DNA from: Curtobacterium luteum
Lineage (GTDB): Bacteria > Actinomycetota > Actinomycetes > Actinomycetales > Microbacteriaceae
DNA length: 37,833 nucleotides
Direction: 5' to 3'
NCBI RefSeq assembly: GCF_001475545.1
Contig: NZ_LDQC01000035.1
Coordinates: 1-37,833, forward strand
Shown: positions 2,884-29,484 of the stretch, in pieces
Numbering within the stretch: position 1 is the first letter of the stretch
How the letters are laid out: every line of letters starts with the position of its first letter
The notes under the pieces: model-generated
What the model saw: only the letters and a program-made list of their open reading frames with translations
Databases searched by the model: none
What the model was told of the DNA's origin: nothing
Translations under genes and position numbers: made by a program

Positions 2884-4155
2884 ATGTCCAGCACCACCGA
2901 ACAGCCCAGCGCCGCCAACACCAGCGGCACCGAGCAGCACGGCGCTCGTGCACACTCCGACGGCGGGTGGGACGCGGCCGACAAGAAAGTCCCCGTCCAG
3001 ACCCGCTCGGAGCGCTTCCAGTCGGCAGACCTCGATGCGTTCCCGAAGGTGACTGGTCGCGAGGTGAACTGGAAGTTCGCCCCGCTCGCCAAGCTCCAGC
3101 CGCTCCTCGACGGTGGGCTCGACGGCGCGCCGTACCCGTACCTCGCGCGCCAGTCCGACGGCGCTGACGTCGAGTGGGGTCGCAGCGACGACCCGCGCGT
3201 CGGCTCGGCCGGGCTCCCCGAGGACCGCGCGTCCGCCGCCGCCTGGTCGGCGCGTGACGCGGTGCTCGCCGTCACGATCAAGGCGACCGAGCAGCACGAG
3301 TTCATCACCATCACGCGCTCCGACTTCGGGTCGCAGCCCCGTGCCGCGCACACCGTGATCACCGCGGAGCCGAACGCGCAGGGCATCGTCGTGATCGACA
3401 ACCGCGGCTCGGCGCTCCTGAGCGAGAACGTCGAGATCGTCGTCCGGGACAACGCCCGGCTCACGGTGGTCAGCCTGCAGGACTGGGACGACGACGCCGT
3501 GCACGTGTCGACGCACTTCGCCGAGGTCGGTCGCGACGCCTTCCTCAAGCACGTGGTCGTCTCACTCGGTGGTGACGTCATCCGGGTGAACCCGTCGACG
3601 CACCTCGGGGCGCAGGGCGCGGACACCGAGATGTACGGCGTGTACTTCGCCGACGCGGGCCAGTACATCGAGCAGCAGGTCTACGTGAACCACGACGCGC
3701 CGAACACGCGCGGTCGTGTCAACTACAAGGGCGCGCTGCAGGGCGAGGGCGCGCACACGGTCTGGATCGGCGACGTGCTGATCAGCCGCCCGGCCGACGG
3801 CACCGACTCGTACGAGCAGAACCGCAATCTCGTCCTCACCGACGGCACCCGTGCGGACAGCATCCCGAACCTCGAGATCGAGACCGGCAACATCGAGGGT
3901 GCCGGTCACGCCAGCGCCACCGGTCGGTTCGACGACGAGCAGCTGTTCTACCTCCAGGCCCGCGGCATCCCCGAGGAAGAGGCTCGACGACTCGTCGTGC
4001 TCGGCTTCCTCGTCGAGGTCATCCAGAAGATCGGTGCGCCTGAACTCGAGGAGCGCCTCATCGCCGCGGTCGAGGAGGAACTGGCGGCCGGCCGATCGGT
4101 CATCGCCGAGGCCGACCCGCAGACCGACCCCGAGGCCGTGCAGGCGGACGCCTGA
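2884..4155 (+). CDS. sufD: Fe-S cluster assembly protein SufD
   Basis: SufD pairs with SufB and the SufC ATPase in the cytoplasmic scaffold complex and is needed for iron acquisition during cluster assembly. The 423-residue product has the SufB/SufD beta-helix fold signatures. Near the C-terminus is the GRFDDEQLFYLQARGIPEEE stretch, which matches the equivalent [17 protein letters not shown] region of SufB. The ATG follows the sufB stop directly, and its own TGA overlaps the next ATG by one base, so translation is coupled. The N-terminal 30 residues and the acidic C-terminal tail look low in complexity and are probably disordered. Confidence 0.94.
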   Translation: MSSTTEQPSAANTSGTEQHGARAHSDGGWDAADKKVPVQTRSERFQSADLDAFPKVTGREVNWKFAPLAKLQPLLDGGLDGAPYPYLARQSDGADVEWGRSDDPRVGSAGLPEDRASAAAWSARDAVLAVTIKATEQHEFITITRSDFGSQPRAAHTVITAEPNAQGIVVIDNRGSALLSENVEIVVRDNARLTVVSLQDWDDDAVHVSTHFAEVGRDAFLKHVVVSLGGDVIRVNPSTHLGAQGADTEMYGVYFADAGQYIEQQVYVNHDAPNTRGRVNYKGALQGEGAHTVWIGDVLISRPADGTDSYEQNRNLVLTDGTRADSIPNLEIETGNIEGAGHASATGRFDDEQLFYLQARGIPEEEARRLVVLGFLVEVIQKIGAPELEERLIAAVEEELAAGRSVIAEADPQTDPEAVQADA

Positions 4156-23360: not shown

Positions 23361-23367
23361 CGTCTCC

Positions 23368-23377
23368 ACGGTACCCT
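23368..23377. promoter_or_regulatory. Interlocked divergent -10 elements (ACGGTACCCT)
   Basis: TACCGT on the minus strand (23373-23368) ends seven bases before the sirtuin ATG. TACCCT on the plus strand (23372-23377) can serve the methyltransferase with a leader of about 39 nt. The two hexamers share the central TA. Confidence 0.5.
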
Positions 23378-25642: not shown

Positions 25643-26104
25643 TCAGTCCTGATCGCTGCGGACGTGCAGCGTCCAGGCGCTGTCGCGGGTGCTGCGGAAC
25701 GCGGAGAAACCGACCTCCTCGACGCCGGTCCGTTCGGACTCCGACAGGTCGAAGCGGAACCGTCCGTCGGCGCACGAGACGGCGTGTTCAAGGCTGATGT
25801 ACCTGCTGGTGGACCCGCCTCGGAGCTGGAGCGCGCCCTCCATGCTGCCGTCACCGAAGCACGCGAGCTCGATCGACCGGACCTTCGTCGGTGCGGGGAA
25901 GGTCATCGAGACCGAGGGCTTGCTCACGTCGGATCGTTCATCGGCCCTGGCGGAGATCCGAGCGAACAGGAGGGCGTCGTCGGACGCCCGCTCGCGCACC
26001 TCCCACCGGTGGAGCGCGGCCTCGTCGACCGGGGCCGGCCCGCTGCAGCCGGTGAGCACCCCGGCCAGGACGACGGCGGTGAGGACGGGGGAGACGAGAC
26101 GCAC
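25643..26104 (-). CDS. Small lipoprotein of unknown function
   Basis: The 153-residue product starts MRLVSPVLTAVVLAGVLTGC, a lipoprotein signal with lipobox LTGC and acylated Cys20. The mature part is short, polar and contains two further cysteines (ELACFGDG and AVSCADG), which may form a disulfide. I recognise no family. GTG 26104 lies six bases after a TAGCCT -10 element that interlocks with the promoter of the divergent hydrolase. It converges on the DD-carboxypeptidase gene with a ten-base gap. Confidence 0.8.
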   Translation of the reverse strand: MRLVSPVLTAVVLAGVLTGCSGPAPVDEAALHRWEVRERASDDALLFARISARADERSDVSKPSVSMTFPAPTKVRSIELACFGDGSMEGALQLRGGSTSRYISLEHAVSCADGRFRFDLSESERTGVEEVGFSAFRSTRDSAWTLHVRSDQD

Positions 26105-26110
26105 CCGATG

Positions 26111-26120
26111 AGGCTAGCGT
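26111..26120. promoter_or_regulatory. Interlocked leaderless divergent promoter (AGGCTAGCGT)
   Basis: Minus-strand TAGCCT (26116-26111) ends six bases before GTG 26104, and plus-strand TAGCGT (26115-26120) ends seven bases before GTG 26128. Both share the TA at 26115-26116. Only 23 bp separate the start codons. Confidence 0.7.
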
Positions 26121-26127
26121 CGTCCTC

Positions 26128-27471
26128 GTGACGACGACGTTCCCGCGCAGCTCCCCGTCCGCCCTCGGCATCGACGCACGCGGGGTGTCCGCGTTCCTCG
26201 ACGCCCTCGAGTCCACGCCCGACGTCGAGGCGCACTCCTTCGTGCTCCTCCGGCACGGCCAGGTGGCCGCCGAGGGCACTTGGGACCCGTACCGCGCCGA
26301 GGCCGTGCACCTGCTGTACTCGCTCAGCAAGAGCTTCACCGCCGCCGGTGTCGGAATCGCCGTCCGCGAGGGCCTGGTCGACCTCGACGCAACCGTGCTG
26401 TCGTACTTCCCGGAGCTCGACGCCGAGGTCACGGACGAGCGGAGTCGACGCATCCTGGTGCGTCACGTCCTGGCGATGGCGAGCGGACACCGGGAGGAGA
26501 CGCTCGAGCGCGCCCGCGCGATCGACCCGACGAACACCGTGCGGGGCTTCCTGCTGCTGCCGCCCGACGAGGAGCCCGGCTCGGTCTTCGCCTACAACCA
26601 GCCGTGCACGTACACCCTCGCCGAGATCGTCCGTCGCGTGTCCGGCGCTTCGCTCGTCGACTGGTTGCGGCCGCGCCTGCTGGACCCCCTCGGCATCACC
26701 GACCTCGCGTGGAAGCGGGACGAGCACGGCAACGAACTCGGCTTCAGCGGTTGCTACGCGCCGGTCGAGGCCGTCGCGAAGCTCGGGCAGCTGTACCTGC
26801 AGCACGGCGTGTGGGACGGGCAGCGCATCTTCGACGAGGACTGGGTCGACGCGGCCACCCGCGTCCAGGTTGAGAACCCGCAGGAGGAGAACCCCGACTG
26901 GAGCCAGGGGTACGGGTTCCAGTTCTGGATGGCCAGGCACGGCTTCCGCGGCGACGGTGCGTACGGGCAGTTCTGCGTGGTGTTGCCGGAGCAGGACGTC
27001 GTGCTCGCGCTGACCGGGCAGAGCGCCGACATGCAGGCGGTCCTCGACGCGGCGTGGCAGCACCTGCTGCCCGCCGTCGATGCTGCATCCGTGGACGCTG
27101 GCGCGGACGCCGGCCTGGAGGCACGGGTCGCCTCGCTCGGTCTGCCCCCGGTCTCGGGTGAGCGGCTCCCGGACGCCGCTGCCCACGGCCCGCTGCACCG
27201 CGACGGCGCCGCGTGGCGCCTCGAGCTCGACGTCGAGGGCGGCCACCTGTCCGTCCCGGTCGGCGAGGGGGAGTGGGCGGTCGAGGGGCCGCTCGCGGGC
27301 AGCGCCGCGCTGGTCGAGGACGGCGCAGCGGTGCTCGTCGCCGTGCGGTTCGTGGAGACCCCGCACACGGCGCACGTCCGCATCGCGATCGACTCGGGCG
27401 ACGCGACCTTCGTGTGGGTCACGCAGCCGCTGCACGACGGTCCGACGACGCTCCGGCGTCCCGCAGACTGA
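26128..27471 (+). CDS. Class C beta-lactamase-like serine hydrolase
   Basis: The 447-residue product has the beta-lactamase/transpeptidase-like fold, with S-x-x-K in YSLSKSFTA and a tyrosine motif YNQ in FAYNQPCTYTL, as in esterase-type family VIII relatives. There is no signal peptide, so it is cytoplasmic and more likely an esterase or amidase than a drug-resistance enzyme. After about residue 325 a separate C-terminal beta-rich domain follows. A copy of CGGCCTGGAGGCACGGG (27111-27127) is embedded in frame near the domain border. GTG 26128 is fixed by the interlocked leaderless promoter. Confidence 0.87.
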   Translation: MTTTFPRSSPSALGIDARGVSAFLDALESTPDVEAHSFVLLRHGQVAAEGTWDPYRAEAVHLLYSLSKSFTAAGVGIAVREGLVDLDATVLSYFPELDAEVTDERSRRILVRHVLAMASGHREETLERARAIDPTNTVRGFLLLPPDEEPGSVFAYNQPCTYTLAEIVRRVSGASLVDWLRPRLLDPLGITDLAWKRDEHGNELGFSGCYAPVEAVAKLGQLYLQHGVWDGQRIFDEDWVDAATRVQVENPQEENPDWSQGYGFQFWMARHGFRGDGAYGQFCVVLPEQDVVLALTGQSADMQAVLDAAWQHLLPAVDAASVDAGADAGLEARVASLGLPPVSGERLPDAAAHGPLHRDGAAWRLELDVEGGHLSVPVGEGEWAVEGPLAGSAALVEDGAAVLVAVRFVETPHTAHVRIAIDSGDATFVWVTQPLHDGPTTLRRPAD

Positions 27472-27505: not shown

Positions 27506-28315
27506 CTACGGCGTGTCGGAGCGGTACTCCACGACGTCCTGGAGCTCGGGACGCTTCGGGGAGACGCCGTCGCCCGAGGACGTGTGCTTGATGCGCCGCA
27601 CCACCCAGGGGACGAGGTACTCCTTCGCCCACCCGAGGTCCTCGACGCGTGCTTCCCGCCACGGTCGGGCCTCGAGCGGCTCCGGGGCGAACGGCGCGAG
27701 CCCGTGGTCGACGCCGAGCGTGTCGAGCACGGCGGCGGCGACGGTGGCGTGTCCGGTCGGAGAGTGGTGCAGCCGATCTGGTGCCCACATCCGCGGGTCC
27801 CGGAGCACCCGGAGCGCCCACATGTCGGCGACGAGTGCGCCGTGCTTCAGGGCGATCGCGTGCAGGTTCTCGTTGTAGATGGCGGTCTTGCCGCGGACCA
27901 TGCCGAGCACCGGCGTCATGCCGACGTCCGGACCGGTGAACATGACGACCGTCGCGCCGTCGCTCCGGAGTCGGGCGATCATCGCGTCGACCTTCGCGGC
28001 GAGGTCGTCCGGGTCCGTGCCGGGGCGGATGATGTCGTTGCCGCCGGCCGACACCGTGACGAGGTCCGGTCGGAGGTCGAGCGCCGGTTCCACCTGCTCG
28101 TCGATGATCTGCTGCAGCAGGCGACCGCGGATCGCGAGGTTGGCGTACGCGAAGTCGCCGGCGCCGGTCGCGTCCGCCTGGTGCGCGAGGACCTCGGCCA
28201 CCCGGTCCGCCCAGCCCCGGTTGCCGCCCGGCACCGTGGGGTCCGGGTCCCCGATCCCCTCGGTGAACGAGTCACCGATCGCGACGTACCTGGACCACGG
28301 ATGACGTTCTGACAC
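27506..28315 (-). CDS. SGNH/GDSL-family hydrolase
   Basis: The 269-residue product has the SGNH blocks: AIGDSFTEG with the nucleophile serine near residue 15, a block II glycine, SAGGNDI (block III) and APDRLHHSPTGH with the catalytic D-x-x-H. It has no signal peptide and is predicted cytoplasmic. Substrates in this family include acyl esters of lipids and sugars and cannot be told apart here. The frame is open to 28618, but GTG 28315 is chosen because TAGGGT ends seven bases before it and the N-terminus VSERHPWSRYVAIGDSF then has family length. It converges with the beta-lactamase-like gene. Confidence 0.9.
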   Translation of the reverse strand: MSERHPWSRYVAIGDSFTEGIGDPDPTVPGGNRGWADRVAEVLAHQADATGAGDFAYANLAIRGRLLQQIIDEQVEPALDLRPDLVTVSAGGNDIIRPGTDPDDLAAKVDAMIARLRSDGATVVMFTGPDVGMTPVLGMVRGKTAIYNENLHAIALKHGALVADMWALRVLRDPRMWAPDRLHHSPTGHATVAAAVLDTLGVDHGLAPFAPEPLEARPWREARVEDLGWAKEYLVPWVVRRIKHTSSGDGVSPKRPELQDVVEYRSDTP

Positions 28316-28322
28316 GCATCGG

Positions 28323-28332
28323 ACCCTAGTCT
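28323..28332. promoter_or_regulatory. Interlocked leaderless divergent promoter (ACCCTAGTCT)
   Basis: Minus-strand TAGGGT (28328-28323) ends seven bases before GTG 28315, and plus-strand TAGTCT (28327-28332) ends six bases before ATG 28339. The hexamers share the TA at 28327-28328. The start codons are 23 bp apart. Confidence 0.7.
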
Positions 28333-28338
28333 CGTGGC

Positions 28339-29484
28339 ATGAGCACGGCCAACCCGATCCCCGCGGACCTCCTCGAGCGCATCGCCGCCCGAGCGCCCGG
28401 GTACGACGCCGCGAACGCGTTCTGCACCGAGGACCTCGACGAGCTGCGCGCCGCCGGGTACCTGCGACTCGGCGTGCCCGCCGAGCACGGCGGCCAGGAC
28501 CTCGGGCTCCGCGCGACGGTCGCGGTCCAGCGGACCCTCGCGAAGGCGGCGCCGGCGACCGCGCTCGGGCTGGGGATGCACCAGGTGTGGGTGCAGGCGG
28601 CCCGCAGCGTGCGTGCACGGGGCGGGTCGTTCCTCCAGGCCGTCACCGACCACGCGGCGGCCGACCACCTGCTCGCGTTCGGGGTGAGCGAGCCGGGCAA
28701 CGACGCCGTGCTCTTCGACTCGTCGACGACGGCGGAGCCGGACGGCGACGGCGGCTACCGGTTCACCGGCACGAAGGTCTCGACCTCGCTCGCGCCGGTC
28801 TGGGACGTCCTCAGCCTGTTCGGGAAGGACACGTCCGGTCCCGAGCCGGTGCTCGTGCACGGCTTCACCGTCCGCGACGACGGCGGCGTGACGCACCACG
28901 ACGACTGGGACACCCTCGGGATGCGGGCGACGCAGAGCCGCACGACCGTCCTCGACGCCGTGCACGTGCCTGCCGAGCGGATCGTGCGGGTGCTGCCGGT
29001 CGGACCGAACCAGGACCCGCTGACGTTCGGCGTGTTCGCCGCGTTCGAGCTCCTCGTGGCGTCCGTGTACGTCGGGATCGCCGAGCGCGCGGTCGAACTG
29101 GCGGTGACGGCCGTGCGGGACCGCACGTCGCTCGACGGCGCGCGCAGGTCGGACGACCCGGACGTGCGCCGCGCCCTCGCCGACGCGCAGGGGGCCGTGG
29201 ACGCGGTCGCGCTGCAGGTCGACGCCCTCGCACGCGACGTCGACGACCTCGTCGACCACGGCGCGCGGTGGTTCCCGTTGCTCGTCGGGACCAAGGCCCG
29301 CACCGTCGACGCGGCGCAGCACGTCGTCGACGAGGCGCTGCGTGTCGTCGGCGGCTCCGCCTACCGGGCGGGGAGCGAGCTCGCCCGACTCGCGCGGGAC
29401 GTGCGCGCCGGCCAGTACCACCCGTCGTCGCGGGACTCGGCCGCCCGGACGATCGCGACGGCCCTGCTCGGCCCGATCCGCTGA
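28339..29484 (+). CDS. Acyl-CoA-dehydrogenase-fold flavoprotein, possibly a group D monooxygenase
   Basis: The 381-residue product has the three-domain acyl-CoA dehydrogenase fold, with the FGVSEPGND flavin region near residue 115 and a C-terminal VVGGSAYRAGSELARLARDV. True short- and medium-chain dehydrogenases place their catalytic glutamate in a YEGT-like motif after that arginine-aspartate pair; here the sequence reads RDVRAGQYHPSSRD instead. The H-P pattern recalls group D flavin monooxygenases such as DszC. The annotation as acyl-CoA dehydrogenase should therefore be treated with care. ATG 28339 follows TAGTCT by six bases. No electron-transfer flavoprotein or flavin reductase gene is adjacent. 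Confidence 0.8.
   Translation: MSTANPIPADLLERIAARAPGYDAANAFCTEDLDELRAAGYLRLGVPAEHGGQDLGLRATVAVQRTLAKAAPATALGLGMHQVWVQAARSVRARGGSFLQAVTDHAAADHLLAFGVSEPGNDAVLFDSSTTAEPDGDGGYRFTGTKVSTSLAPVWDVLSLFGKDTSGPEPVLVHGFTVRDDGGVTHHDDWDTLGMRATQSRTTVLDAVHVPAERIVRVLPVGPNQDPLTFGVFAAFELLVASVYVGIAERAVELAVTAVRDRTSLDGARRSDDPDVRRALADAQGAVDAVALQVDALARDVDDLVDHGARWFPLLVGTKARTVDAAQHVVDEALRVVGGSAYRAGSELARLARDVRAGQYHPSSRDSAARTIATALLGPIR

Follow-up and report, generated by a model that had tools for sequence, protein, structure and literature searches.

In the window, which is the whole stretch of 37,833 nucleotides of Curtobacterium luteum DNA analysed here, the start codons of a small lipoprotein gene and a serine hydrolase gene diverge across a gap of 23 bp, and this junction is probably a bidirectional promoter whose two elements share a TA (the geometry of about 23 bp) and from which both messages would be leaderless. 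The GTG of the lipoprotein gene lies on the minus strand at 26102–26104 (CAC on the plus strand), that of the serine hydrolase gene lies on the plus strand at 26128–26130, and the whole intergenic gap occupies 26105–26127. The gap contains the interlocked −10 pair AGGCTAGCGT (26111–26120), in which the lipoprotein −10 TAGCCT (minus strand, 26111–26116) ends 6 nt before its GTG and the hydrolase −10 TAGCGT (plus strand, 26115–26120) ends 7 nt before its own. The two hexamers lie on opposite strands and have the TA at 26115–26116 in common, which is a reciprocal −10 overlap. The TANNNT spacing of 6–7 nt before the start codon, used here as the mark of a leaderless gene, was found on both sides of the junction, and no Shine-Dalgarno-like run was seen by eye on either side of the gap. 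The core was not TANNNTA, and the 18-bp form, in which −7T and −11A are reciprocally paired, is therefore not present; the distance between the two transcription starts, derived from the positions of the −10 elements, is predicted to be 23–24 bp. The geometry given by the initial annotation, with the GTG codons 23 bp apart and a 10-mer holding TAGCCT and TAGCGT that share a TA at spacings of 6 and 7 nt, was exact to the base.

The architecture is real and well supported at the level of the sequence, and as transcription it is predicted. Two leaderless genes fired from one interlocked −10 element had been proposed; this reading is supported by the statistics of the spacing, by the conservation of each element within its own gene family, and by the finding of the same layout between other pairs of genes. 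The layout is not singular: a second, better conserved site was found 2.2 kb off. Once one element is given, an interlocked partner requires only one extra base (an A, about 14% by composition) and a well-placed start codon; taken by itself, the local sequence therefore says little for the second element, whose case is carried by the comparisons within the gene families. The density of ANNNTANNNT in the window was not enriched (4 found vs 6.08 expected) and was dropped as evidence for the site.

The serine hydrolase gene (26128–27471, plus strand, GTG start) belongs to PF00144 (E 1.1e-34) and is predicted to be leaderless. Its start is not movable, because its frame is closed upstream by a stop at 26080 and no ATG, GTG, or TTG lies between that stop and 26128; many close relatives align from residue 1. 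The nearest relatives of the hydrolase are Curtobacterium. In all 28 hydrolase loci compared, 27 labelled Curtobacterium and the other L026, a TANNNT hexamer precedes an in-frame start by exactly 7 nt. Among the other Microbacteriaceae, 18 hydrolase loci were present in the 80 fetched; the hexamer was found at 6–7 nt in 14 of them and was absent in 4. The −10 variants of the relatives were TAGGGT, TAGTGT, TAGAGT, TAGCGT, TAGGCT, and TACGCT. The three letters specified by the motif (first T, A, last T) were invariant in 28/28 loci; TANNNT was the search condition, yet all 28 loci contained it. At the position where an A would create a partner element, 4 of the 28 loci have that A, which is near the expectation from composition, and no lipoprotein gene adjoined the hydrolase in those four. 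In one locus (L029, 3001–3355) the best hydrolase match covers the protein only from residue 119 onward, and gene calling gave no hydrolase gene close to the start, although the −10 element is present; this hydrolase gene may be broken.

The lipoprotein gene (25643–26104, minus strand) encodes 153 aa with a lipobox LTGC, recognized by eye. Its GTG (26102–26104) is also the predicted +1 of the message. The start cannot lie earlier, because the TAG of the minus-strand −10 element is itself an in-frame stop four codons upstream, and a later start is unlikely because the signal peptide (MRLVSPVLTAVVLAGVLTGC) would be cut into. The protein had no family match in Pfam or NCBIfam, and its 11-sequence profile yielded no credible relative of solved structure (best E 0.6). 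Of the 66 genomes of the genus, 27 contain a match to the lipoprotein, that of the window included. The upstream DNA was tested in 27 of the 30 non-window matches, those left out being L116, L117, and one match without a locus. An in-frame start preceded by TANNNT at 6–7 nt was found in 21 of the 27 loci (19 at 6 nt and 2 at 7 nt), with up to six upstream starts tried in each, which makes a chance match easier. The starts used in L106 and L109 lie upstream of the matched part, by 75 and 48 bases, and are less sure. The remaining 6 loci were without the signal; in one of these (L105), a TANNNT lies 8 nt before a far start. Two of the 21 signal-bearing loci (in genomes G060 and G063) sit at the same junction as in the window. 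The partner-completing base was A in only 1 of the 21 loci, namely that of G060 at this junction.

The hydrolase and lipoprotein genes were seen as neighbours in three genomes, those of the window, G060, and G063, and the interlocked form was found at this gene pair in two, the genome of the window and G060, with both halves present in each. Between these two, 22 of the 23 bases of the gap are the same, and the lipoproteins are 64% and the hydrolases 94% identical. In G063 (same contig as L015), a gap of 38 bp separates the starts and there is one −10 element for each gene, which shows that the gene pair does not need interlocking. Two loci with close hydrolases (L001 and L002; 92 and 90% identical) contained the hydrolase element alone, with no lipoprotein match adjoining. 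Because the hydrolase element is present with or without the lipoprotein gene, it is likely to be the older one, and the lipoprotein gene probably came to share it in the lineage of the window species and G060; the −10 of the type found in the lipoprotein family would then have merged onto the TA of the hydrolase element. A possible alternative history is the loss of the lipoprotein gene in the other relatives.

The main alternative is that only the hydrolase element works, the minus-strand TAGCCT being a by-product of near-symmetry and the lipoprotein gene being read from elsewhere or hardly at all. That TAGCGT needs just one more base, which four hydrolase loci possess without any lipoprotein gene, speaks for such a by-product, as does the lower identity of the G060 lipoprotein compared with its hydrolase. 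However, 20 of the 26 lipoprotein loci other than that of G060 have their own TANNNT at 6–7 nt before an in-frame start, a spacing of 6 nt recurs in both the window and G060, and the lipoprotein frame has stayed open in G060 despite its divergence; we consider the by-product unlikely.

The statistics of the spacing were obtained from a sample of the relative G060, in which 60 stretches of 20 kb (1.2 of 3.68 Mb, about one third of the genome) gave 1037 called starts. The genes were called by a purpose-made codon score that ignores the upstream DNA, and the choice of starts was likewise our own. TANNNT was found to end 6 nt before 100, 7 nt before 66, and 8 nt before 13 of the 1037 starts, and the background at 14–29 nt had a mean of about 2 per position (33 over 16 positions). 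With 166 of 1037 starts set against such a background, TANNNT at 6–7 nt is mostly signal. TAGCGT was the commonest of these 166 hexamers (23) and TAGCCT was tied fourth (12). No clear −35 signal was found in the leaderless genes of the sample (at most 0.07 bits in any column between 34 and 4 bases upstream of the hexamer), and the claim of a −35 element was dropped. Double-leaderless divergent pairs were not in excess, with 8 among 176 vs 11.4 expected from the separate rates; two of these 8 were interlocked, both from this gene neighbourhood. In a map of 21 by 21 spacings, the cell (6,7) was the highest, a peak that rests on 3 sites where the average cell has 0.15; the runners-up contained 2 and the cell (6,6) none. 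When both starts were at 6–8 nt, the TA-sharing core was found at 5 sites and the 18-bp core at 1; gene calling gave a gene pair at only two of the 5, both in this gene neighbourhood, and the other three are no more than candidates.

The 7-nt spacing of the hydrolase element is constant despite differing upstream DNA, in which genes were called in 13 loci. The end of a D-alanyl-D-alanine-peptidase-like gene was found upstream in L001 and L003, and an acetyltransferase-like gene (by eye), with its end overlapping the hydrolase start, in L005 and L007; elsewhere different genes lie upstream. In L005 and L007 the hydrolase −10 is kept inside the end of the called upstream gene (about 2985–3004). 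One or both genes of the junction could also be read from a promoter within the opposite gene, with an ordinary leader and with the TANNNT motifs present by chance, and many M. tuberculosis genes do have a leader without a Shine-Dalgarno run (PMC3898074); the constant spacing in 28/28 hydrolase loci over such different upstream DNA makes this very improbable.

The second interlocked double-leaderless pair of the window (28313–28341) contains a minus-strand GTG at 28313–28315, the core ACCCTAGTCT at 28323–28332, and a plus-strand ATG at 28339, and it is flanked by SGNH-hydrolase-like (by eye) and acyl-CoA-dehydrogenase-like genes. The core was kept in 22 of 22 relatives with that gene pair, with 23 bp between the starts in 20 of them and 22 bp in 2; 5 further Curtobacterium loci did not contain the gene pair within the fetched stretch. 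This site was found in more relatives and is better conserved than the hydrolase/lipoprotein site, and it is the better model for long-term selection. In 21 aligned sequences, the A, the TA, and the T of the core were fixed and the minus-side spacer was variable. Most of the inner core bases and nearly all plus-side bases from the core to the ATG (28328–28338) were also fixed in the 21 sequences, which appears to exceed what −10 elements demand. Such fixed inner bases (21/21), together with the near-palindromic 10-mer, could suggest that the GCTAGC at the hydrolase/lipoprotein junction is the operator of a regulator and not a −10 pair, but this is scarcely credible, as the inner bases of the hydrolase promoter vary while its first T, A, and last T stay constant in 28/28 loci. 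Elsewhere in the window, a sirtuin-like gene (by eye) has, at 23361–23373 on the minus strand, a TACCGT that ends 7 nt before an ATG and may be leaderless too.

The layout was scanned for as start-N6-ANNNTANNNT-N7-start with divergent start codons, and the reversed pattern served as the control. The genome of the window contained 8 matches vs 1 of the control, and the uniqueness of the layout at 26102–26130 was rejected on this count. ORFs of at least 148 aa were found on both sides at 6 of the 8 sites and not at L082 and L087. Four other interlocked sites of this genome (L081, L083, L084, L088) have such ORFs on both sides; at L084, a TetR-like regulator faces a transporter-like gene (names given by eye). 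Across 66 genomes of the genus, 336 matches vs 58 of the control were found, and 64 of the 66 genomes were above the control; the matches are not independent, and the genus-wide control is the reversed pattern at unshifted spacing. The 148 matches of 28 genomes were listed in full and grouped by short expressions on the letters of the match alone. The resulting sets occur in 23, 20, 18, 21, and 26 genomes and one in 5, with 32 matches outside the sets; the set of 26 also picked up a second group, its main group being present in 24 genomes by eye. The second site of the window (28313–28341) makes up one of these sets.

In the rest of the family (117 genomes), 367 matches vs 250 of the control were found, with 68 genomes above and 29 below the control, which is a smaller excess than in the genus. 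ORFs of at least 100 aa were present on both sides in 21 of 28 placed family loci (L190 was not placed), or in 19 of 26 without the genus loci L200 and L201; this check is weak because GC-rich DNA gives long ORFs by chance. In several other genera of the family (L180, L184, L191, L196, L206), the layout was seen by eye between the start of a thiamine-monophosphate-kinase-like gene and a small, often lipoprotein-like gene. In the scan of the phylum (197 genomes), the control was of similar size in many genomes, and the scan was therefore set aside as evidence on the class of promoters; the subsets summed gave 9 vs 1 for the order (4 genomes besides that of the window) and 51 vs 35 for the taxonomic class (13 genomes). 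A near-identical interlocked site with TATGAT on one strand was found in 6 of 7 genomes of the genus g6 of the same class (G088, G188, G218, G227, G237, G247), and it seems to be a pair of long standing.

Many prokaryotes are known to have bidirectional promoters in which the −10 elements overlap, and the common start-to-start distances of these promoters are 18, 10, and 23 bp (PMC12825309). They are defined by divergent start sites 7–25 bp apart, and the commonest form pairs −7T with −11A at 18 bp (PMC10268837). The junction resembles the bidirectional promoters of E. coli and other prokaryotes described by Warman, Grainger, and colleagues in having reciprocally overlapping −10 elements on opposite strands at such a predicted distance. 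In contrast to the 18-bp form, positions −12 and −11 are shared here; by our own derivation, a shared −12/−11 works out at 23 bp, and the junction is therefore placed in the 23-bp class. As a further difference, both predicted transcription starts fall on the start codons of two protein genes, and the word leaderless is absent from the main text of both PMC12825309 and PMC10268837. Mycobacterial leaderless genes, with TANNNT 7–12 bp upstream of their starts and no −35 consensus (PMC3898074, PMC5741613), have the same type of −10 element and likewise no −35; they are described singly in these sources, whereas two are interlocked here. A transcription start within 5 nt of the start codon is the limit for a leaderless gene (PMC3898074). 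The divergent neighbours prpD and Rv1129c of M. tuberculosis, whose starts were mapped to the start codons, yield leaderless mRNAs, and closely juxtaposed divergent promoters are called a common feature in the legend of the prpD/Rv1129c figure (PMC3898074). This pair, divergent and doubly leaderless, is like what is predicted for the junction, but its description in PMC3898074 contains neither the distance nor a shared element. Our literature search found no description of the interlocked and double-leaderless combination; a prior one in the founding Warman paper of 2021 is possible.

In the proposed mechanism, the housekeeping sigma factor would read TAGCGT on the plus strand and TAGCCT on the minus strand, and the −12/−11 base pairs of both elements would be the same two base pairs. 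RNA polymerase would bind in one orientation at a time, presumably with mutual exclusion of the other. Both sides would be transcribed, each from the GTG or from one base before it, and two leaderless messages would result. The initial annotation had also held that the two genes are forced to compete for polymerase, which is unsupported and appears to be the weakest part of that first reading: in E. coli, all five bidirectional promoters tested had too little basal activity for their two directions to compete, though one side could be repressed once the other was substantially activated (PMC12825309).

Bidirectional promoters and leaderless TANNNT genes were already known, and what appears to be new here is their interlocked double-leaderless variant, recurrent in the genus. 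With a promoter of 10 bp and no leader, two divergent protein genes could hardly be arranged more compactly. The genus provides natural comparisons, with the interlocked pair in two genomes, separate elements in one, and the genes apart in many; because of these comparisons and the few bases involved, the junction offers a clean test of whether the orientation of the polymerase couples two genes and of the way in which such promoters originate. We suggest only tentatively, and with some doubt, that interlocked double-leaderless promoters may form a kept regulatory class in Curtobacterium and its kin, in which selection holds the start codons 22–24 bp apart at certain gene pairs. If so, one −10 pair would serve both genes and their messages would be mutually exclusive at each firing; translation would be tied to the orientation of the polymerase, and neither gene would have a leader that allowed it to be tuned separately.
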